Of a stretch of DNA of 64,000 bases, positions 2,403-14,924 are shown one piece after another. The position numbers and the translations under genes are program-made. Numbering within the stretch: position 1 is the first letter of the stretch; each line of letters starts with the position of its first letter. The notes under the pieces were generated by a model. It saw only the letters and a list, made by a program, of their open reading frames with translations, ran no database searches and had not been told where the DNA came from. The DNA lies in NCBI RefSeq assembly GCF_900215515.1, contig NZ_OBEI01000002.1, forward strand, positions 124,001-188,000. Direction: 5' to 3'. This DNA is from Persephonella hydrogeniphila (GTDB lineage: Bacteria; Aquificota; Aquificia; Aquificales; Hydrogenothermaceae).

Positions 2403-3293
2403 TCACTGAATTTTCTTCCAGACGACTTTCGTTTTATTCTTCCTGTTTAATAGTATAACAAGTTTGTATTTTCTACCCCCAAATGTTATACCTACATCAG
2501 CAAGAAAATTTTCGCTTTTTACATCGATATAAAGTCTTATTCTGTAGAGAATATCAGAGCTGAACCCATCTATTAGAACAAGTTCGTCAACATTTTTAAA
2601 AGGCTTTTCTTTCCTGTAAGAGATTATTTTTGAAGCTAAAGAGCTGTCTATCTCTTCATCTAACGCCATCAAAACCCATTTAGATGCTGTGTTTATATTT
2701 ACCTTTCCATTGGAGTAGGGAGATAAGACAGACTTAAGACCAGGAAAAAATCTACCATTTATGATCTTCCCATTAAAAACCTTACTGTCCACTCCATCAA
2801 TAAGCAAGAATTCCTCAACTGTATCTATGTAAGAATTTTTTGCTGGATACAGTCTGTAATCCTCTTTCCCTCCATTACTGAAGCTATCAGCATCTATCCA
2901 GTCTATTATATTGTAGAGAATCTGGTTATTTATCTGAACCGTATCAAACAACCTTTCAAGTATACCAAAAAATTTTTTATCTATTTTTTCCCCTGTTATA
3001 ACCCTGTTTGGGTTTAAAAATCTTTCTTGATCCACAATCTGAACTTCCACCTTTACATTTTCCAGTGCAAGAGGAATATTTTTAGACCAGAACTCTCCTA
3101 TGTAATCAACAGATTTATCATCCTTATTTAGAACTTTGATTAGAGCCTCAGAAATAGAGTCAGAAATAAGCAGTATCTGCTGTGTATTTACACTATCCTC
3201 AACATAATTTTCCAGCAGATACCTATCCTCAGTTGTATCTAAAACAGCTGTTCCTATTGAAGCGATAACAATAAAAACAAAAAGCAATATCAT
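2403..3293 (-). CDS. gspK: Minor pseudopilin GspK
   Basis: A 296-residue protein with a hydrophobic N-terminal helix, a large alpha domain and the helix-hairpin-helix-like segment KVNINTASKWVLMALDEEI typical of GspK, the tip pseudopilin that caps the type II pseudopilus with GspI and GspJ. It overlaps gspJ by four bases. Oddly, translation from the only available ATG gives MILLFVF, with no basic leader and no Gly before the hydrophobic helix, and an in-frame stop lies two codons upstream. The usual prepilin-peptidase site is therefore absent, or a frameshift hides it. Confidence 0.85.
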   Translation of the reverse strand: MILLFVFIVIASIGTAVLDTTEDRYLLENYVEDSVNTQQILLISDSISEALIKVLNKDDKSVDYIGEFWSKNIPLALENVKVEVQIVDQERFLNPNRVITGEKIDKKFFGILERLFDTVQINNQILYNIIDWIDADSFSNGGKEDYRLYPAKNSYIDTVEEFLLIDGVDSKVFNGKIINGRFFPGLKSVLSPYSNGKVNINTASKWVLMALDEEIDSSLASKIISYRKEKPFKNVDELVLIDGFSSDILYRIRLYIDVKSENFLADVGITFGGRKYKLVILLNRKNKTKVVWKKIQ

Positions 3294-3817
3294 AACTCAC
3301 TACCTGCAGGTATGTAAAAAGATTTACCATCGATCTTTAGCCTTATAATAGATGGAAAATTTTTGCCTCTATAATGCTGGAGAAATCTTCCTTTATAATA
3401 AGCCTCAAACTCTATATCATCAAAAACACCCAACAAAACCTTTTTTATACCATCACTACCTAACCTGCCATCCATATAGGGATACTCCATGTAAAAAAGC
3501 TTGCTTTTCTGACCTTCTTTTTCTACCCTGTACTCAGCTCTTACTGCCCCTGTAAAAAATAGAGGATAAACTGTGTAAAAGGATATCCCCCCATTCCCAA
3601 GGATAAAATTTTCCTTCCTTTTTTCCACTTTGCTAAACATCTGTTTCGCCAGCTGGTTTTTTACAGAGATGTAAGATATATATCTTTCTGTCAGATAGGA
3701 CAGCTCTGCAGAGCCTCTTATGTTTGATATAAAGGTATACCCTACAGTGCCAAAAACAAGAAGCAGTAAAGAAACAACAAGAAGAAGTTCAAGGAGTGTA
3801 AAACCTTTACTCTTCAT
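3290..3817 (-). CDS. gspJ: Minor pseudopilin GspJ
   Basis: A 175-residue prepilin. The class III signal KGFTLLELLLVV places a Gly before Phe and a Glu at position +5, the recognition pattern of prepilin peptidase, followed by the hydrophobic helix and a beta-rich globular domain. Order between gspI and gspK and its length identify it as GspJ, one of the three minor pseudopilins of the pilus tip. The start codon lies inside the end of gspI (11-base overlap) and its stop overlaps gspK, so the set is translationally coupled. Confidence 0.8.
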   Translation of the reverse strand: MKSKGFTLLELLLVVSLLLLVFGTVGYTFISNIRGSAELSYLTERYISYISVKNQLAKQMFSKVEKRKENFILGNGGISFYTVYPLFFTGAVRAEYRVEKEGQKSKLFYMEYPYMDGRLGSDGIKKVLLGVFDDIEFEAYYKGRFLQHYRGKNFPSIIRLKIDGKSFYIPAGSEL

Positions 3818-4127
3818 AAACTCTCAACTTTAAGATAGGTTTTCCTGTTTTTTTGTCTAAAACTGTATAATCTATCTCTTTCAGTCCAAAAACTGTATCC
3901 TTACTTTCCTGATGTATTGTAAACTCAGGATTTTCCTTTTTTATGTTATAGTAGCTTTCATTAAAAAAGTTTAAAGCTTTTGTCTTCTTTATGCTGTTAT
4001 ATATACCTGATATATTCTCAGACTGTATTTTTATAAGAACAGTAAAAGCTATACTGAAAATAACAATTCCCACCAGAACTTCAAGTAAAGTAAAGCCTTT
4101 ATTTGTCCCAGACTGAGATATCATCAT
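3807..4127 (-). CDS. gspI: Minor pseudopilin GspI
   Basis: A 106-residue prepilin with the leader motif KGFTLLEVLVGIVIFSIAF: Gly/Phe cleavage site and Glu at +5. The small size and the position right after gspG fit GspI, which nucleates the tip complex with GspJ and GspK. Two ATGs occur in tandem at the start (4127 and 4124); the reading frame overlaps the end of gspG by 29 bases. No gspH lies between gspG and gspI, which is common outside the Proteobacteria. Confidence 0.82.
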   Translation of the reverse strand: MMISQSGTNKGFTLLEVLVGIVIFSIAFTVLIKIQSENISGIYNSIKKTKALNFFNESYYNIKKENPEFTIHQESKDTVFGLKEIDYTVLDKKTGKPILKLRVYEE

Positions 4128-4506
4128 CAGTACCTAACTCTCCGTCAGGACCCTTTGATTTTAGTTCAAAGGGGTGTTTTTCCGATGGGTAAATATAAAT
4201 ATAATCATTACCCCACGGGTCTTTAGGTAAAGATTCCATATACTGCTTCCATTTTTTTGGCTCAGGTGGTATCTTTGGTTTTTCCACAAGGGCCTTTAAT
4301 CCCTGTTCAGTTGTAGGATAGTTCCCGTTATCCAATCTGTACATCTCTAATGCTCTTTTTATCTCTTTTAGCTGAACTTTTGTTGTTTTTATCTTTGCCT
4401 CTTCAGATCTCCCAATTATATTTGGAACTACAAGAGCTGCGAGTAAAGATAATATAACAAGTACAACAAGTAGTTCTAACAGTGTAAAACCTTTCCTATT
4501 TCTCAT
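4099..4506 (-). CDS. gspG: Major pseudopilin GspG
   Basis: A 135-residue protein and the first gene of the secretion operon. It shows the prepilin site KGFTLLELLVVLVIL, the helix end NIIGRSEEAK, the segment YRLDNGNYPTTEQGL and the calcium-loop ending GPDGELGTDDDISVWD, all standard for the major pseudopilin that polymerises into the periplasmic piston. A GGGAGG sequence lies a few bases before the ATG. Its upstream region is the DnaA-box array, so the operon promoter must sit inside or beside the proposed origin. Confidence 0.97.
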   Translation of the reverse strand: MRNRKGFTLLELLVVLVILSLLAALVVPNIIGRSEEAKIKTTKVQLKEIKRALEMYRLDNGNYPTTEQGLKALVEKPKIPPEPKKWKQYMESLPKDPWGNDYIYIYPSEKHPFELKSKGPDGELGTDDDISVWDK

Positions 4507-4569
4507 ACTTCCTCCCGGATTTTACTCAAATTTTTTCTTTTTTTCTTTTATATTTTTATCATAAATAAG

Positions 4570-4590
4570 TAATAATAAGAATAATAATAG
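4570..4590 (+). other. DnaA-trio-like triplet tract of the unwinding element
   Basis: Reading toward the first box, the bases form TAA TAA TAA GAA TAA TAA TAG, followed by GC and then the box at 4593. The bacterial basal unwinding system described for Bacillus consists of a DnaA box, a short GC-rich spacer and a run of trinucleotides of the form (T/A)A(G/A) on this strand. Six of the seven triplets fit; GAA is the exception. Single-strand loading of DnaA here is an inference from this match. Confidence 0.7.
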
Positions 4591-4741
4591 GCTGTGGATA
4601 TGTGGATAACTTAAAAAAATCTATAAATATTAATAACTTACAGGACGGCAGGGTTGTGGATAACTATGTGGATAATATGTGGATAACTCAAAAAATAAAA
4701 AGTTCTTATATTAGAACACTTACGGGTTCGTATTTACTAAC

Positions 4742-4784
4742 TTTCTATATTTATCAATGACTTATCCCTGTGGATAACTTTTCA
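4742..4784 (+). repeat. 43-bp direct repeat, copy 1 (contains a DnaA box)
   Basis: Identical to 4892-4934 except for one base (T at 4758, C at 4908). It contains TTATC, the half-box TTATCCCTG and a perfect DnaA box at 4769-4777. The two copies are exactly 150 bases apart and bracket the four phased boxes. Confidence 0.95.
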
Positions 4785-4891
4785 AAATAGATCAAGTTAT
4801 CCACAACTTTTTCCGAGTTATCCACAATTTTTGGTCAGTTATCCACAGAAAATTTTGAGTTATCCACAACCCCTGTGGATAACTTTTTAGT

Positions 4892-4934
4892 TTTCTATAT
4901 TTATCAACGACTTATCCCTGTGGATAACTTTTCA
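4892..4934 (+). repeat. 43-bp direct repeat, copy 2 (overlaps the folK 3' end)
   Basis: Second copy of the repeat at 4742-4784. From 4912 onward it is also coding sequence: the last folK codons (Ser-Tyr-Pro-Gln-Gly-stop) are the DnaA box and the half-box read on the minus strand. The origin therefore appears to have taken over the end of the gene, or the gene end was duplicated into the origin. Confidence 0.95.
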
Positions 4935-5406
4935 GACAGGATATAATTGTTCTGTCACGCAGATTAAAAAGGAGCTCTTTTACTGTTTTTTTCAGGACAG
5001 GATGAATAAACTCTGGTTCTATATCAAAAAGAGGCTGCAGTACAAAATCTCTTTCGTGGAGTCTTGGGTGAGGAATAACAAGATATTCTGTATCTAATAT
5101 CAGATTTCCATAAAACAGTATATCTATGTCTATCTCCCGTGGACCCCAGCGAAATCTTTCTACTCTTCCTAATTCTTTTTCTATATTTTTTGTCATCTTG
5201 AAAAGTTCAAATGGATCTAACTGGGTGAATCCTTTTATAACAGTGTTGTAAAAGTCAGGCTGGTCTTCAAAGCCAACAGCTTTTGATACGTATACAGGTG
5301 CTATCTGGATATCTTTGACAAATTCAGATAATTTATCTACAGCTTTTTTTATATAACTTTCTTTGTCACTTATATTTGAGCCAAGAGCTAAAAATACTTT
5401 TTCCAA
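4912..5406 (-). CDS. folK: 2-amino-4-hydroxy-6-hydroxymethyldihydropteridine pyrophosphokinase
   Basis: Transfers pyrophosphate from ATP to hydroxymethyl-dihydropterin in folate synthesis. The 164-residue chain matches the family length. It begins FLALGSNISDKESYI, has the substrate loop VGFEDQPDFYNTV and the family signature RWGPREIDIDILFYG, followed by IPHPRLHERDFVLQPL. The start is 30 bases from the divergent transpeptidase gene. Its last five codons and stop lie within a DnaA box of the proposed origin, so the C-terminal end may be dictated by origin sequence. Confidence 0.96.
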   Translation of the reverse strand: MEKVFLALGSNISDKESYIKKAVDKLSEFVKDIQIAPVYVSKAVGFEDQPDFYNTVIKGFTQLDPFELFKMTKNIEKELGRVERFRWGPREIDIDILFYGNLILDTEYLVIPHPRLHERDFVLQPLFDIEPEFIHPVLKKTVKELLFNLRDRTIISCLKSYPQG

Positions 5407-5435
5407 TGGTAGCCTTTAGATGCTAAAATTATTTT

Positions 5436-6707
5436 ATGGGAGTTATTTTAGCAGTTTTTTTGATTTTTTCTTATGCTTACTCATACGATTTAGATTCCCT
5501 TCTTGATGAGGCAATAAGAGAAGTAGAAAGTGAAAAATCAGAAAAGTATTACAATCTTGCTCTTAAGCTCTTTAATGAAGGTGTTTATAAGCTTGCGGTA
5601 AAAAATGGTGAGCTATTTATTGAAAAAAATAACTTTGACAGAAGAAAATTAGAAGATATGCTTCTTTTACTATCTGTTTCTTATTATAAGTTGAAAGAGA
5701 CCAAAAAACTGTTTGATCTTTATTTGAGATTTATAGGTTCTGGTATATCTAAGGATATAAAGCTGAAATTATTTGTTTATACAAATAATCTGCTGGTAAG
5801 AGAGAAAGAGTGGAAGAGGTTAAAAATTGTAAGGAAAAAATGGCATAGATATTTTAAAAATAAGAAAATAAGACCTAAATTGAAAGGAGTTTATTCAAGA
5901 TTTGAACCGGGAATCAATATATTTTCTTTAAAAGAAGGAAATATCATAGGAGATAATACAGTCTATATAGCAGATAAGAACCTTACATTGATAGAGATCG
6001 CTAAAAAAATAGATATGGGATATGATGAGCTAAAAATATCTAATCCTCATATAGATCCTTTTGATATTCTAAAAGGAGAAGCTGTATTTATCCCGAGAAG
6101 AAGATTGCTACCTGAACAGAATTTTGAGTTTGGTACTGTTTATATAAATCTTTCAGAAAAAAGACTTTATTATCCATTAATTATAGAAGGAGAGCCTTAT
6201 GTTATATCGTTTCCTGTAGGAATAGGTACAGATAACACAAAATCTCCTGTAGGGGAGTTTTTTATATCTCAGAAAAAAGAAAATCCAGAATGGATAGTCC
6301 CAAAGTCAATAAGAGAAGAAGATCCTTCCCTACCTCCAGTCGTCCCTCCAGGTCCAAATAATCCTCTTGGTGTGAGAGCAATGAGATTAGGAAACACAGA
6401 GTATCTTCTCCATGGGACAAGTAAAAGATTTGGTATAGGGATGAAAGTCAGTCATGGATGTATAAGGATGTATAACAGAGATGTAGTAAGGCTTTTTGAT
6501 ATAGTTAATAAAGGAACTAAGGTGGTTATAACAGATAAAAGATTTAAGATTTTTAAAAACAGATATATATATTTAGAGATTTTCGAACTTTCAGTAAAGG
6601 ATAAAATTGACATATTAAACCTTTTAAAAGAAAGGGGGGTTAAAATAACCCCTTATCTTATAGATTTTTACAATATAGAAAAGAGGGGATACTCAATTCC
6701 CCTCTAA
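5436..6707 (+). CDS. L,D-transpeptidase (YkuD domain) with LysM-like segment
   Basis: An exported peptidoglycan enzyme of 423 residues: signal peptide (about 1-17), a helical TPR-like region (about 40-130), a LysM-like segment (about 168-220) and a YkuD domain (about 225-370). The catalytic motif SHGCIRM is at 339-345 with Cys342 as nucleophile, preceded by LLHGTS. Such enzymes form 3-3 peptide cross-links or attach lipoproteins to the wall; the coiled-coil lipoprotein next door is a possible partner. The ATG has no Shine-Dalgarno sequence; a TAAAAT at 5424-5429 lies six bases upstream, so the mRNA may be leaderless. Confidence 0.9.
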   Translation: MGVILAVFLIFSYAYSYDLDSLLDEAIREVESEKSEKYYNLALKLFNEGVYKLAVKNGELFIEKNNFDRRKLEDMLLLLSVSYYKLKETKKLFDLYLRFIGSGISKDIKLKLFVYTNNLLVREKEWKRLKIVRKKWHRYFKNKKIRPKLKGVYSRFEPGINIFSLKEGNIIGDNTVYIADKNLTLIEIAKKIDMGYDELKISNPHIDPFDILKGEAVFIPRRRLLPEQNFEFGTVYINLSEKRLYYPLIIEGEPYVISFPVGIGTDNTKSPVGEFFISQKKENPEWIVPKSIREEDPSLPPVVPPGPNNPLGVRAMRLGNTEYLLHGTSKRFGIGMKVSHGCIRMYNRDVVRLFDIVNKGTKVVITDKRFKIFKNRYIYLEIFELSVKDKIDILNLLKERGVKITPYLIDFYNIEKRGYSIPL

Positions 6708-6710
6708 TAA

Positions 6711-7103
6711 TTATTTAGCGAGAGATTTTCTCATTACTCTTTCTATGTTCTCAGAAAGTCTGTCAAGTTTTGCTTCTATAGCTCCAACTCTATCTTCCAG
6801 ACCTCTTATAGCAGCTGCATTTTTCTCTGCTTTTTCATCAACAGCTTTGATCTGTTTTTTCAAATCTGCATGTTCAGCCTGAATATTGCCAACCTGAGTT
6901 TCAAGATCTTCGATTTTTCCTACAATCTTTGGATGTTCTTCTTTATGCATCTGTTCTATTTTTGTTACTTTACTTTCAATGGCGTTCAGTTTTTCTAATA
7001 TTTTAGCATCCTGCTCATCTACATAGCTTTTGGTAGCACATCCTGTAAGAACAACAGCAGAAAGACCTAAAACAGCACCTGCTTTTAAAAGTTTTTTAAA
7101 CAT
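6711..7103 (-). CDS. Coiled-coil outer-membrane lipoprotein (Lpp-like)
   Basis: A 130-residue lipoprotein. The signal peptide ends in the lipobox VVLTGC, so acylation at Cys22 is expected. The rest is almost entirely heptad-repeat helix (for example LEDRVGAIEAKLDRLSENIE), giving a long coiled coil, and it ends in Lys-Ser-Leu-Ala-Lys, reminiscent of the basic tail by which Lpp is joined to peptidoglycan. A GGAGG-type site lies before the ATG. The convergent neighbour is an L,D-transpeptidase, the enzyme class that attaches Lpp in enterobacteria; that functional link is an inference. Confidence 0.8.
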   Translation of the reverse strand: MFKKLLKAGAVLGLSAVVLTGCATKSYVDEQDAKILEKLNAIESKVTKIEQMHKEEHPKIVGKIEDLETQVGNIQAEHADLKKQIKAVDEKAEKNAAAIRGLEDRVGAIEAKLDRLSENIERVMRKSLAK

Positions 7104-7173
7104 CTCAAACCTCCATTTATTATTTATTTAATAAGTTTAGCATAAATTTAAGCTGTACATTTTTTATTCTAAT

Positions 7174-7203
7174 TTTGAATGTATTCAAATATTGTTATAC
7201 AAT
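7174..7203 (+). promoter_or_regulatory. Promoter of kdsC with overlapping 16-bp palindrome
   Basis: TTGAAT (7175-7180), a 17-base spacer and TACAAT (7198-7203) form a sigma-70 type promoter. The -35 hexamer is the left arm of the perfect palindrome TTTGAATGTATTCAAA (7174-7189), whose right arm gives a TTGAAT reading leftward toward the lipoprotein gene. A regulator or divergent promoters could share this site. Confidence 0.55.
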
Positions 7204-7246
7204 ATATATGGCTATCCTCCTGAAAATATTGACCGAACCTGCCACC

Positions 7247-7269
7247 TGAGGTACCTTATAGGTACCTCA
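7247..7269 (+). other. Perfect hairpin in the kdsC leader
   Basis: Nine base pairs (TGAGGTACC with GGTACCTCA) enclose the loop TTATA. It lies in the roughly 80-base leader between the kdsC promoter and its ATG, whose spacing shows no Shine-Dalgarno sequence. There is no U-tract, so it is not a simple terminator. The flanking GC-rich bases (7231-7247) and a weaker ATTC/GAAT hairpin after it suggest a structured RNA of unknown role. Confidence 0.5.
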
Positions 7270-7289
7270 ATTCTATTTCGGAATCAGCG

Positions 7290-7817
7290 ATGAAAAACAT
7301 TAAAGAAATAGCAGAAAGAATAAGATGGTTCATTATGGACGTTGATGGTGTTCTCACAGATGGAGGTATTATATACGATAGTGGTGGTAATGAGCTTAAA
7401 AAATTCTGTGTAAAGGATGGAATGGGAATAACCCTTCTCCATAATGCTGGAATAAAAACTGCTATTCTTACAAGTAGAAATTCCCCTATGGTACAGAAAA
7501 GAGCTGAAGAACTGAGAATATCAGAGGTTATTCAAGGTGCAAAGGATAAGTTGAATCTGTATGAGAATCTAAAGGCTAAACATAATCTTGCTGATGATGA
7601 AATTTTATATATAGGAGATGATTTTGTTGATCTACCTGTACTTAAAAGGGTTGGATTTCCTGTCTGTGTTAAAAATTCTCCTGATGAGCTTAAAGAGGTA
7701 TGTGTATATATAACAAAGAATGAAGGTGGGAAAGGAGCTGTAAGGGAAACTGCAGAGCTTTTATTAAAGATGAAAGGGCTTTACAGTAAAGCTATAGAAA
7801 AATATACCGGTGTATGA
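7290..7817 (+). CDS. kdsC: 3-deoxy-D-manno-octulosonate 8-phosphate phosphatase
   Basis: A HAD-superfamily phosphatase of 175 residues that releases KDO from KDO-8-phosphate for lipopolysaccharide inner-core synthesis. Motif I is MDVDGVLTDG (Asp17 and Asp19), motif II ILTSR, and the metal-binding motif IGDDFVDLPV follows; the lack of a cap domain and the length are typical of KdsC. It overlaps the next gene by four bases. kdsD, the preceding enzyme family in KDO synthesis, is at 31715-32686, so the window holds two steps of the pathway. Confidence 0.93.
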   Translation: MKNIKEIAERIRWFIMDVDGVLTDGGIIYDSGGNELKKFCVKDGMGITLLHNAGIKTAILTSRNSPMVQKRAEELRISEVIQGAKDKLNLYENLKAKHNLADDEILYIGDDFVDLPVLKRVGFPVCVKNSPDELKEVCVYITKNEGGKGAVRETAELLLKMKGLYSKAIEKYTGV

Positions 7818-8395
7818 TGGAAAAGGATAAAGAGAGATGGAATAAAAGATATACAGAAGAGGAATATCCCTGGAAAGAACCTTCAAAGATTGTCAGAGAA
7901 TTTTATAACCTGTCAAGAAAAGGAAAGGCATTAGATATTGCATCTGGTTTGGGAAGAAATGCAATATTCCTGTACGATAAAGGTTTTGATGTCGATGCTG
8001 TTGATATATCTGATGTGGCACTGGGCAGAATAAAAAAAGAAAGGCCTGAGATAAACACCATTCAGGCAGATCTTGATATTTACAATATACCTGAAAATAG
8101 TTACGACCTTATCATAAATATAAATTACCTCAATAGAAGACTTATTCCCCAGATAAAGGAGGGACTTAAAAAGGGAGGTGTTGTGATATTTGAAACCTTT
8201 ACACTAAAAAAAGGTAAAGAGTATATGCAACCTGAAAACAAGGATTATCTTCTCAGACCTAATGAGCTTTTACATCTTTTTATAGATATGTATATAGTTT
8301 TTTATCAGGAAAAGGATTATGTAAAACCTGACGGCCAGAGGGCTTTTATATCTTCTCTGGTAGCTATCAAAAATTGTGATTATTTTCCAAAATAG
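7814..8395 (+). CDS. Class I SAM-dependent methyltransferase (TehB-like)
   Basis: A 193-residue Rossmann-fold methyltransferase. Motif I reads ALDIASGLGRNAIFL (about 39-53), the acidic residue after beta-2 is in VDAVDISDVAL, and QADLDIYNIP follows. The N-terminal WNKRYTEEEYPW is shared with tellurite-resistance TehB-like enzymes. Its substrate cannot be deduced. It is translationally coupled to kdsC (ATGA overlap) and its end overlaps the convergent membrane-protein gene by 16 bases. Confidence 0.8.
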   Translation: MMEKDKERWNKRYTEEEYPWKEPSKIVREFYNLSRKGKALDIASGLGRNAIFLYDKGFDVDAVDISDVALGRIKKERPEINTIQADLDIYNIPENSYDLIININYLNRRLIPQIKEGLKKGGVVIFETFTLKKGKEYMQPENKDYLLRPNELLHLFIDMYIVFYQEKDYVKPDGQRAFISSLVAIKNCDYFPK

Positions 8396-9300
8396 AACTC
8401 AAAAAATACCTTTATAAATGGTGTTCCTTTGAATGCTCTTTCTTTTGTCCAGTCTACTCCTGTATAAACATTAAAAAAAGCCCATTTTTTCCATAAGTTT
8501 GCCCTTACCCTGTACTGGACAGTGTAAGAGTTTACACCACCGTTTATGATTCTTTTCTGCTGTATTCCACCGAGTATCTCTGTTGCGACAGGTCTTTTGT
8601 CAGGCTTATAGAATCTTACTGATGTTGTGTAGTTTACAACCTGATATGGATTGTTTGATGATTTGTACCTGTCTATATAAACTCTCCATACTGTTTTAGG
8701 AGCTATAAGTCTGTCTATATAAAGCTGTGTACTTTCTTCTAATCTGTATGTAGATATTTTTCTCTCTGCCCTGAATCTCTGGTAAACTGTAAACTCCCAT
8801 CTTTTGTAAACAATAGGGATGTTCCATATCTCATACTTTGCATATATCTTAGGAGAACTTGTCAGCCCTGTGGATAACCTGTGTTTTAGCAGTTTTCTCT
8901 GTACTGTTTTGTATTCAGCTCCTACAGATATCTCATTTTTTGTTTCCTCTGATATTTCTAAAGGTTCTTCTTCCTCTTTTTTTGATAATTTCTCTGTGTA
9001 GCTTTCAACAAACAGACCTATTCTTTTTTCTAATTTTGCAAGTCTTATTTTGAAATCTGCTCTCAGTATTTTTTTAAAGTCTGGAGTACTGTCGTACCTG
9101 AAGCCTGCTCTAAATCTTAAGTAGGCTTCTGTCTCTTCTTTTATTCTCGGGTCTGCAAAAAAGTTATCTAACTTTGCAACTGTTGAGTGAACAGCTTTAG
9201 ATATTTCTTTATGTAGTATATCAATAAAACTTTCCTGAGAATAAGCACCTGTAGAAAGGAGGACTATCAGTAATACAGCCCTCCTTATGTTTAGGTACAT
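8380..9300 (-). CDS. Predicted outer-membrane beta-barrel protein
   Basis: A 306-residue protein with a signal peptide ending near TGAYSQ, a helical segment (about 20-50) and then many alternating aromatic/hydrophobic strands, finishing FIKVFFEFYFGK. A terminal aromatic strand and repeated YxRxRxxxx strands are characteristic of outer-membrane barrels. No family is recognised. It begins seven bases after the alaS stop and is probably transcribed with it; its end overlaps the convergent methyltransferase. A perfect DnaA box inside the gene (8869-8877) is probably incidental. Confidence 0.65.
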   Translation of the reverse strand: MYLNIRRAVLLIVLLSTGAYSQESFIDILHKEISKAVHSTVAKLDNFFADPRIKEETEAYLRFRAGFRYDSTPDFKKILRADFKIRLAKLEKRIGLFVESYTEKLSKKEEEEPLEISEETKNEISVGAEYKTVQRKLLKHRLSTGLTSSPKIYAKYEIWNIPIVYKRWEFTVYQRFRAERKISTYRLEESTQLYIDRLIAPKTVWRVYIDRYKSSNNPYQVVNYTTSVRFYKPDKRPVATEILGGIQQKRIINGGVNSYTVQYRVRANLWKKWAFFNVYTGVDWTKERAFKGTPFIKVFFEFYFGK

Positions 9301-9307
9301 AACTCAT

Positions 9308-11971
<2,664 letters not shown>

Positions 11972-12010
11972 TTAATTATAAATCAAAAGAAGATATTTAT
12001 AAAAATACCG

Positions 12011-12039
12011 TTGAATGTGAAGCTATAAAGATTTATATT
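12011..12039 (+). promoter_or_regulatory. Promoter directly abutting an ATG (leaderless mRNA candidate)
   Basis: TTGAAT (12011-12016), 17-base spacer, TATATT (12034-12039). The ATG of the next gene starts at 12049, nine bases after the -10 element, and there is no Shine-Dalgarno sequence, so the transcript would start at or within a few bases of the start codon. Confidence 0.65.
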
Positions 12040-12048
12040 ATTCCTGCC

Positions 12049-12858
12049 ATGAAAATAGAAACAGTCATAGAAGATCAGCTTAATAAACTGCTTGAGATAG
12101 AAACAGAAGATAGATTTACTGTAGAGTCTGTCTATTATCGGGGAGATACTCTGTGTATATCTACACAGGTGGGTTGTCCTATCAGATGTAGTTTCTGTGC
12201 TTCTGGGAAAGAAGGGTTATTAAGAAATCTTACTGCGAAAGAGATCGTCTATCAGTATGAACTGGCAGTATCAGATGGTATGAATATAAAGAATATTGCC
12301 TTTGCAGGGATTGGAGAACCTCTTCTAAACTGGGAAAATGTAAAAAAAGCCTTCTACTATTTTAAAGAAAAAGGTTTAAGATCATCTTTTTACACAACAG
12401 GGTTTCCTGTAAAAAATTTTATAGAACTTTTAGAACTACCCCACAGTGGAGTGACTTTGTCTCTTCACGGAGTTAATGACAGGAAAAGAAGAGAGCTGAT
12501 ACCTAAAGGCGAAAAGATAGAGAATATTATCTCTGTCTTTAAAGAACATCTTTCAGGTCTATCCAAGAGGAAAAGGAAGCTATACAGCATAGCTTATCTT
12601 CTTATAAGTGGAGTTAACGATTCTAAAGAAGAACTGAAAGAGCTTGTCAGGATATCAAAGGAGTTAGGAATAGGAGTATCTCTCCTTAAATATAATGAGA
12701 TAGAAGGTATCCCCTATAGGACAACATCAGATGAAGAGTATGAGAAGGTATTTCTTTTTCTTAGAGAAAATGGTATAAAAGTAACTCTTTCCAACAGATA
12801 CAGAACAAGGAAGATAGGTGGCTGTGGAACCCTAATGGTAAACAGGCTGAAATCTTGA
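12049..12858 (+). CDS. Short RlmN-like radical SAM methyltransferase
   Basis: The chain of 269 residues carries the RlmN/Cfr features: iron-sulfur cysteines in GCPIRCSFCASG (Cys43, Cys47, Cys50), the additional Cys36 in TLCISTQVGC and Cys259 in GGCGTL that correspond to the two catalytic cysteines of E. coli RlmN, and the SAM motif AGIGEPLLN. RlmN methylates C2 of A2503 in 23S rRNA and A37 of some tRNAs. The usual N-terminal accessory domain (about 90-100 residues) is missing: only about 30 residues precede the cluster region. A distinct substrate or minimal form is possible. Two tRNA genes follow on the same strand. Confidence 0.85.
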   Translation: MKIETVIEDQLNKLLEIETEDRFTVESVYYRGDTLCISTQVGCPIRCSFCASGKEGLLRNLTAKEIVYQYELAVSDGMNIKNIAFAGIGEPLLNWENVKKAFYYFKEKGLRSSFYTTGFPVKNFIELLELPHSGVTLSLHGVNDRKRRELIPKGEKIENIISVFKEHLSGLSKRKRKLYSIAYLLISGVNDSKEELKELVRISKELGIGVSLLKYNEIEGIPYRTTSDEEYEKVFLFLRENGIKVTLSNRYRTRKIGGCGTLMVNRLKS

Positions 12859-12883
12859 CAAAGTAAAAAAAAGTTTATATTAT
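12855..12883 (+). promoter_or_regulatory. tRNA promoter
   Basis: Consensus TTGACA (12855-12860), spacer of 17, TATTAT (12878-12883), 13 bases before tRNA-Val. It overlaps the stop codon of the preceding gene. Confidence 0.85.
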
Positions 12884-12896
12884 ATTTGTCCTAATT

Positions 12897-12970
12897 GGGC
12901 GGTTAGCTCAGTTGGCCAGAGCACCTCCCTTACAAGGAGGGGGTCATAGGTTCGAATCCTATACCGCCCA
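12897..12970 (+). tRNA. tRNA-Val (anticodon TAC)
   Basis: Acceptor GGGCGGT pairs with ACCGCCC (discriminator A at 12970). Anticodon stem CCTCC/GGAGG closes the loop CTTACAA, anticodon TAC, and GGTTCGAATCC forms the T arm. The 3' CCA is not encoded (TTT follows), so it must be added by the CCA enzyme, unlike in the neighbouring tRNA. Confidence 0.97.
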
Positions 12971-12978
12971 TTTAAAGC

Positions 12979-13057
12979 GGAGCCGTAGTTCAGCTTGGCC
13001 CAGAACGCCGGCCTGTCACGCCGGAGGTCGCGGGTTCGAATCCCGTCGGCTCCGCCA
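12979..13057 (+). tRNA. tRNA-Asp (anticodon GTC)
   Basis: Acceptor GGAGCCG pairs with CGGCTCC, discriminator G, encoded CCA at 13055-13057. Anticodon stem CCGGC/GCCGG with loop CTGTCAC gives anticodon GTC. The D loop is long. The high G+C of both tRNAs against AT-rich surroundings fits a thermophile. It lies eight bases after tRNA-Val, so the two are cotranscribed. Confidence 0.97.
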
Positions 13058-13080
13058 TTAAAATATAATCGAGTTTTCAA

Positions 13081-13866
13081 ATGCATAGAAAAAGAAAAAA
13101 GAAAGAGTACATAGTTCACAACGTTGATCTCGCATTTGATATTCTTTTTTTTCTGGCACAAAATCCAAACTCAACATTTGAAAAAATTCTTGAACATATA
13201 GATTCTTCTTCTTATCAGATAGAAAAAATACTTGATGTTTTAACAGCAAGAGGATATATAAATTACAACCACAAGAAAAAAACTTACTCCCTCGGTATAA
13301 AAAATTTTGAAGTGGGCTACTCTTATCTATCCCATGTAGATATAAGAAATATAGCAAAACCTTATCTACAGTACCTTGGAGATAAGTTTCAGGAAAATGT
13401 ATATCTTGCGATAAGAAGTGGGTTTGAAGTTGTATATATAGATTCCTATGAAGTTAACCGTCCTGTCGTTGTAAAATCAAGGGTTGGGAGGCTTCTTCCC
13501 CTTTATGCTTCAGCATCAGGAAAGGTTCATCTTGCAGATATGGATGAGGATGAGCTTGAAGAGTTTTTTAGAGAAGAAAAGCTTATTCCGTACACTAAAA
13601 AAACAATAACAGACAAAGAAAAATTATTGAAGCATATACAGATGGTAAGAGAGCAAGGATATGCTATTGATGATGAAGAATGGGAAGAAGAAGTAAGATG
13701 TCTTTCTGTTCCTGTAAGAGACCATACTGGTAGAGTTGCAGCGGCTGTTACTTTATCTGCACCATCCTGGAGACTTCCTTCTGAAGTCCTAACAGGAGAG
13801 ATAAAAGATGAGTTTATAAAGAAAGCAAAAGAACTATCTGAAAGGCTCGGTTATACAGAAGAATGA
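13081..13866 (+). CDS. IclR-family transcriptional regulator
   Basis: Winged-helix DNA-binding half (about 13-75, with a typical recognition-helix region YQIEKILDVLTARGYINYN) and an IclR effector-binding half (about 90-255) containing YIDSYEVNRPVVVKSRVGR, ASASGKVHLA and GYAIDDEEWEEEVRCLSVPV. Length 261 is normal. Its stop overlaps the start of the peptidase gene, so the two are coupled; the regulator may control that gene, but the ligand is unknown. The ATG is 24 bases after the tRNA-Asp CCA, with no Shine-Dalgarno sequence. Confidence 0.92.
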   Translation: MHRKRKKKEYIVHNVDLAFDILFFLAQNPNSTFEKILEHIDSSSYQIEKILDVLTARGYINYNHKKKTYSLGIKNFEVGYSYLSHVDIRNIAKPYLQYLGDKFQENVYLAIRSGFEVVYIDSYEVNRPVVVKSRVGRLLPLYASASGKVHLADMDEDELEEFFREEKLIPYTKKTITDKEKLLKHIQMVREQGYAIDDEEWEEEVRCLSVPVRDHTGRVAAAVTLSAPSWRLPSEVLTGEIKDEFIKKAKELSERLGYTEE

Positions 13867-14924
13867 AAGATAGGCTTGTAGATTACCTGAAAACTCTTGT
13901 TGAGATACCATCTGTTATAGGAAATGAAAAAGAAATAGCCGATTTTGTTCATAGATTTTCTCAAAAATACTACCCTGAAGAAAACATAATAAGACATAAC
14001 AACTCTCTGATTATTTTTGATGATTTTGATAAATCAAAAAAAACATTGGCTCTTGTTGGTCATCTCGATACAGTTCCCGGAGAAAACGAGTATACAGGAA
14101 AAGTTATAGACGGAAAGCTGTACGGGCTTGGAGCCTCAGATATGAAAGGGGGACTTGCTGTAATGATGGGGCTGATGGATTATTTTTCAAGAGCCGAAAA
14201 AAGATTTAACCTCGTATATGTTTTTTATGAAAAGGAAGAAGGACCTTATATAGATAACGGTCTTGAACCTCTACTTTCGGACTTTGATATCATTCAGAGA
14301 GCAGACCTTGCTATAGCATTAGAACCTACAGATAACAAAGTTCAGGTAGGATGCCTTGGAACCCTACATGCTTCAATAATATTTGAAGGGAAAAGAGCTC
14401 ATTCTGCACGACCATGGCAAGGAGAAAATGCTATTCATAAAGCCGCTGATTTTCTGAAAAGGCTTGCAGATTTCGGTATCCATGAGTATGAGTTTGGGGG
14501 AATGAAATATCTTGAAGTAATGAATGCTACGATGGTTGAGTTCTCAGGGGGTAGAAATATTATCCCTGATAAATTTGTTATTAATGTAAACTACAGATTT
14601 GCACCTGGAAAGAGTATAGAACAGGCAAAGAAAGATGTTTTAGAACTTGTAAATGGTGAGGCAAAGGTAGAGTTTACAGATCTGTGTCCTTCAGGTAATG
14701 TCTGTCTGTATAATCCGGTACTTTCTGAGTTTATAGAAAAGTTCCAACTGCCTGTTGAAGCAAAACAGGCATGGACAGATGTGGCAAGATTGTCCCTTTA
14801 CGAAATTGATGCTGTAAATTTTGGTCCTGGTGATCCTGCACAGGCACATCAAAAGAATGAGTATATTCCTCTAAACAATCTTTTCAAAAATTTCGAGATT
14901 TTTCAAAGATTTATAGAAATATAA
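13863..14924 (+). CDS. dapE: M20 peptidase, succinyl-diaminopimelate desuccinylase-like
   Basis: A zinc amidohydrolase of 353 residues. Metal and catalytic residues are visible in LVGHLDTVPG (His, Asp), LGASDMKGG (Asp), YEKEEGP (catalytic Glu and metal Glu) and near the C terminus AHQKNEYI (His). The layout, with a lid domain between about 165 and 275, matches the DapE/ArgE group; GASDMKGGLAVMM is close to DapE of the Gram-positive type. DapE produces LL-diaminopimelate for lysine and peptidoglycan. Other M20 activities (for example LysK-like) are not excluded. Confidence 0.8.
   Translation: MKDRLVDYLKTLVEIPSVIGNEKEIADFVHRFSQKYYPEENIIRHNNSLIIFDDFDKSKKTLALVGHLDTVPGENEYTGKVIDGKLYGLGASDMKGGLAVMMGLMDYFSRAEKRFNLVYVFYEKEEGPYIDNGLEPLLSDFDIIQRADLAIALEPTDNKVQVGCLGTLHASIIFEGKRAHSARPWQGENAIHKAADFLKRLADFGIHEYEFGGMKYLEVMNATMVEFSGGRNIIPDKFVINVNYRFAPGKSIEQAKKDVLELVNGEAKVEFTDLCPSGNVCLYNPVLSEFIEKFQLPVEAKQAWTDVARLSLYEIDAVNFGPGDPAQAHQKNEYIPLNNLFKNFEIFQRFIEI

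Follow-up and report, generated by a model that had tools for sequence, protein, structure and literature searches.

Is the dense array of DnaA boxes that lies between gspG and folK, away from dnaA, the chromosomal replication origin (oriC) of this bacterium? The array is near the start of the window, the 64-kb stretch of DNA analyzed here, which comprises bases 124001-188000 of contig 2 (382 kb) in a 2.0-Mb, 19-contig draft genome. A preliminary description had read the site as a probable oriC located next to neither dnaA, rpmH nor gidA, and had counted eleven perfect boxes with one near match in the array against four isolated perfect boxes elsewhere in the 64 kb. That reading is supported by a switch in fourfold-site skew, a basal unwinding system (BUS) at the gspG-side edge and conservation across genera.

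A single cluster of DnaA boxes in the genome

The window contains 15 perfect matches to the DnaA box TTATCCACA on both strands, 11 of which lie at 4601-4927. The chance expectation is 0.54 per 64 kb, and 100 shuffles gave five at most. Addition of a one-mismatch box at 4593 brings the array to 12 boxes in 335 bp (4593-4927). The four remaining perfect boxes are isolated (1510, 8869, 41313, and 63171), and no 400-bp stretch of the window outside the array has more than two boxes when up to one mismatch is allowed. The whole genome has 38 perfect TTATCCACA boxes and also 38 copies of a reversed control word, and the 27 boxes outside the array are at chance level. A second cluster of perfect boxes was found nowhere in the 2.0-Mb draft genome, which leaves this cluster unique, as expected of an oriC.

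These counts match the preliminary description, and so does the location. The left neighbor is gspG (type II secretion protein G, PF08334; 4099-4506, minus strand), and the right neighbor is folK (HPPK, PF01288; 4912-5406, minus strand). The last perfect box (4919-4927, minus strand) is within the 3' end of folK because the gene covers 4912-5406.

A basal unwinding system at the gspG-side edge

The BUS was defined in Bacillus subtilis and is present in 85% of predicted origins from 2070 species (PMC8287927). A site counts as a BUS when three or more correctly oriented DnaA-trios lie no more than 16 bp from a DnaA box (PMC8287927). The gspG-side edge of the array has this sequence arrangement. 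Nine NAN trios, six of which are TAA or TAG, form the plus-strand array AATAAGTAATAATAAGAATAATAATAG at 4564-4590, followed by a GC spacer at 4591-4592 (plus strand) that is 2 bases long in most relatives. The spacer leads into an overlapping pair of boxes on the minus strand (4593-4609) that consists of ATATCCACA at 4593-4601 and TTATCCACA at 4601-4609. On the other side of the trios is an AT-rich stretch (4521-4563), a candidate duplex-unwinding element that doubles as the region upstream of gspG, which is read leftward. The A+T content is 88-90% in 40-base windows at 4521-4580, and the counterpart of 4521-4563 is T/A-rich in all aligned relatives. In composition, then, an AT-rich element adjoins the boxes, and its opening is predicted.

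The specificity of this module was assessed with 30 of the genome's 38 perfect boxes: 11 from the array and 19 isolated. A trio run of this kind adjoins the outermost array box alone, with six TAA/TAG trios versus no more than two beside any of the 19 isolated boxes. The full combination of trios, GC spacer and box pair occurs once, next to the array, and was absent from all 19 isolated boxes. Trios and a box pair are located at one edge of the array in ~20 relatives. The trio array at 4564-4590 and the repeated IHF-like element described below are parts of the site that the first reading missed.

The array is conserved as a unit

Three perfect boxes spaced 11-12 bp apart follow the pair on the minus strand (4655-4686, beginning at 4655, 4667, and 4678), and their offsets of +62, +73-74, and +84-85 from the first box are kept in relatives. 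The next perfect box (4769-4777, minus strand) comes after a spacer kept at ~91 bp in relatives. A conserved hairpin was considered for this spacer and rejected, as no consistent inverted repeat was present across relatives. Four perfect plus-strand boxes (4797-4868, beginning at 4797, 4818, 4839, and 4860) are exactly 21 bp apart and face the opposite way to the trio-side boxes; a period of 21-22 bp is kept in relatives. An exact TTATCCACA match on the minus strand at 4874-4882 precedes the box in folK.

Paired perfect boxes were found in 29 of the 41 genomes of the family. Box offsets of 0/8, 62/73/84, 174-176, and 202-204/223-226/244-247 are common to genera g1 and g7 and are nearly matched in g3, g4, and g5, whose neighboring genes differ. 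Six further genomes of the genus also have folK next to the array, and gspG adjoins it in the window's genome only. Other genera have quite different neighbors, identified by eye from translated ends: pyrG (g4), ubiD (G016), polA (G040), and secA plus an aminotransferase (G001). In one sub-group of the genus, inspection by eye placed a toxin-antitoxin-like pair beside the origin in two genomes (L047 and L051, right flank) and a type I restriction-like gene there in a third (L054, right flank). Several genera share the trio, boxes and spacings over ~280 bp but not the flanking genes, so the array has been conserved as a unit through rearrangements of the surrounding chromosome. A search for trio-plus-box-pattern origins in several f2 genera matched 4 of 13 genomes, which is not above the control.

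This conservation, which lies outside mobile elements, extends across genera and families of the phylum and bears on whether the array could be the origin of an integrated plasmid or phage. Plasmid origins are known with box-plus-iteron layouts, but the flanks here are housekeeping genes (the gsp operon, folK, L,D-transpeptidase, and alaS) and no replication-initiator gene was seen near the array. The probability of a plasmid or phage origin is negligible.

Strand composition switches within the array

Raw cumulative GC skew on contig 2 was uninformative and tracked gene direction; the switch is hidden because gene strand dominates raw GC skew. Raw GC skew is reported to fail in the same way for Aquificae generally (PMC4070872). 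Skew was measured at fourfold-degenerate third codon positions over ~380 kb of contig 2, using a gene-level changepoint corrected for gene strand. The GC skew changepoint fell at C2:128738 (window 4738), within the array (C2:128593-128927), with values of -0.128 to the left and +0.095 to the right (permutation p ≤ 0.002) and a 2-unit support interval of C2 127558-138381 (window 3558-14381). The AT skew changepoint agrees (131222 on contig 2), and the cumulative fourfold-skew minimum is at gspG, the gene ending at 128521. The preliminary description had proposed a cumulative GC skew minimum at this position as a check. The strand-corrected minimum on contig 2 does lie on the array, and the same check on raw GC skew would have failed.

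The same test gave a weaker result in two relatives. In G018, AT skew switches 1.6 kb from its own array (p = 0.07) and the GC changepoint is 135 kb off, and the local skew test in G016 was weaker than in the window's genome. In 14 alternate 20-kb stretches sampled from contig 1, fourfold skew changed from plus to minus near 270 kb, which is terminus-like, and more weakly from minus to plus near 470 kb, where there is no box cluster.

The skew switch and the trios also bear on a role in regulating initiation from another origin. A DnaA-titrating or -reactivating locus would be rich in high-affinity boxes, as the array is, and an IHF site accompanies the DnaA-box cluster of datA as well (PMC8407004). 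However, datA- and DARS-like loci are without an unwinding module or a skew switch, and the array has both. Moreover, the genome has no other box cluster to serve as the origin that such a locus would control. A datA- or DARS-like function is very unlikely. The region 4521-4934 is very probably the chromosomal oriC of this heat-loving, Persephonella-like Aquificota bacterium, working by the model of DnaA array, BUS and IHF/HU bends proposed below.

The array is not linked to dnaA

The genes dnaA and dnaN are on contigs 6 and 1, respectively, and the array on contig 2 adjoins neither, in contrast to a classical dnaA-linked oriC. The preliminary description was correct in placing the site away from dnaA, and neither rpmH nor gidA is an immediate neighbor. 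An oriC unlinked from dnaA is not rare among bacteria. Bacterial origins nevertheless usually adjoin dnaA, which raises the alternative that the true origin is at dnaA on contig 6 (70.8 kb) and that the array is accessory. The 18 kb around dnaA contain 0 perfect boxes and only scattered one-mismatch boxes, and fourfold skew is -0.077 to the left and -0.027 to the right of the gene, with no clear switch. An origin at dnaA is thus highly improbable.

The sister family f5 has the linked arrangement, with the array at the classical oriC location between dnaA and dnaN in the ten genomes sampled. For example, G107 has the dnaA domain at 1418-1900, the array at 2476-2619 and dnaN at 2736-3086. Among the genomes checked in f1 and f2, dnaA and dnaN are either on contigs other than that of the array or separated from it by tens of kb or more. 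Given the position of the array in f5, the lineage of the window probably lost the linkage.

An IHF-type element is repeated between the boxes

Alignment of 18 origins revealed a repeated non-box motif, WWTCAATNACTTA, that fits the IHF consensus WATCARNNNNTTR (PMC8407004). The WATCARNNNNTTR sites between boxes are mostly of the form TATCAATNACTTA. The window has two exact WATCARNNNNTTR matches on the plus strand, TATCAATGACTTA at 4752-4764 and TATCAACGACTTA at 4902-4914, and two degenerate plus-strand copies. These are TATTAATAACTTA at 4628-4640, recognized from the alignment of relatives, and the weak ATTAGAACACTTACG at 4710-4724, whose position is conserved in relatives. Some relatives have 4-5 exact sites. 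Ten origins, one per genus, contain 21 exact WATCARNNNNTTR sites compared to a mean of 1.9 expected and a maximum of 7 from 300 dinucleotide shuffles. Sites between DnaA boxes are thus above chance, as expected of an IHF-assisted origin of the E. coli type. Only two exact WATCARNNNNTTR sites were present in ten f5 origins.

A near-identical segment of ~45 bases (TTTCTATATTTATCAAyGACTTATCCCTGTGGATAACTTTTCA) occurs twice, 149 bases apart, at 4742-4786 and 4891-4935. Because the second copy runs into the 3' end of folK, origin sequence encodes part of the FolK C-terminus.

A motif matrix was trained without the genomes tested. Its training data included close relatives, and part of its result therefore reflects shared ancestry. 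The top four matches in 400 kb of G018 were all in its origin, as were 2 of the top 3 in G016 and 3 of the top 6 in the window's contig. Independent support for the putative element is that it occurs in multiple copies and also in other genera. Seven exact copies of TCAATAACTTA lie within 563 bp in G040, of 13 genome-wide (L060 1390-1958), and three of the seven in G047 lie within 242 bp (L186 1310-1555). The origins of these two genomes, which represent two other genera, have many TCAATAACTTA copies, up to ~10 in 560 bp, and relatively few DnaA boxes. Genus g13, whose sampled genomes are without TTATCCACA pairs, has 4-6 motif copies per 500 bp in three species, and we infer that these clusters may be origins. 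One genus lacks TTATCCACA arrays, and three of its genomes share a cluster of TCAATRACTTATGA in both orientations (L218, L219, and L235, ~1200-1800); in L219 the cluster adjoins repeated TTTCACAT words. These clusters are candidate origins of that genus. A single TATCAATAACTTA is located in the dnaA upstream region of G014 (L237 ~1498-1510), which suggests that the same factor could possibly control dnaA there.

The window's genome has five HU/IHF-family genes, and the two f5 genomes checked have one and two. Two of its own HU/IHF proteins were scanned and matched the IHF-alpha model best, with scores below the NCBI cut-offs. A literature search for 'TCAATAACTT' with oriC returned no relevant paper. 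We tentatively suggest an evolutionary path for the TATCAATNACTTA element, one that we regard as possible rather than probable. In this order, the origin would have moved away from the dnaA-dnaN locus and acquired repeats of an IHF-type site, most of them in one orientation and with additional fixed bases. One of the expanded HU/IHF paralogs would read this site. The element would by now help to define the origin: it would have outlived the TTATCCACA array in one genus, and it would reach up to ~10 copies where DnaA boxes are few.

Proposed mechanism and significance

The sequence itself shows conserved boxes and trios, a switch in skew and an excess of IHF-type sites; from these, DnaA binding, IHF binding and bending, unwinding and origin firing are predicted. 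DnaA would bind all twelve boxes, and the pair at 4593-4609 would seed an ATP-DnaA filament onto the single-stranded DnaA-trios at 4564-4590. The filament would open the AT-rich stretch towards gspG, where the helicase would be loaded. The distal boxes may concentrate DnaA at the unwinding site; B. subtilis genetics led to the proposal that looping by distal boxes raises local DnaA (PMC6669920). The array would be folded by IHF/HU-type bends that lie between its box groups, at 4752 and 4902 with 4628 and 4710 as further possible sites, and this folding would bring the distal boxes to the trios.

Aquifex aeolicus DnaA is the structural model for origin opening. No description of an Aquificota or Aquificales oriC was found in the literature searched, and homologous sites in Persephonella are likely to have been predicted earlier. 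The site provides a concrete oriC candidate with a conserved unwinding module in a phylum where raw skew reveals none (PMC4070872). It also allows dnaA-linked and unlinked origins to be compared within one class, and it specifically predicts HU/IHF-type bending as an integral part of the unlinked form.

Comparison with known origins

The site is a well-supported case of a known origin type with an uncommon multi-site bending layout. The f5 dnaA-oriC-dnaN origins of the same class (G100-G116) likewise have an inverted array of perfect TTATCCACA boxes, but dnaA and dnaN flank those arrays, which have almost no IHF-type sites. The gspG-side edge resembles the BUS of B. subtilis incC (PMC6669920, PMC8287927), in which two adjacent DnaA boxes are followed by a short GC spacer, 3'-[G/A]AT-5' trios and AT-rich DNA in the same order and orientation, with distal boxes beyond. 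It differs from the B. subtilis system in its location outside the dnaA-dnaN region and in its distal boxes, which form a 21-bp-period array together with IHF-type sites. Like the array, the Escherichia coli oriC is not next to dnaA, has oppositely oriented box groups and contains IHF-consensus sites (PMC8407004). In E. coli oriC, most boxes are weak and a single IHF site predominates, whereas this array has two exact and two degenerate IHF-type sites and eleven perfect boxes.
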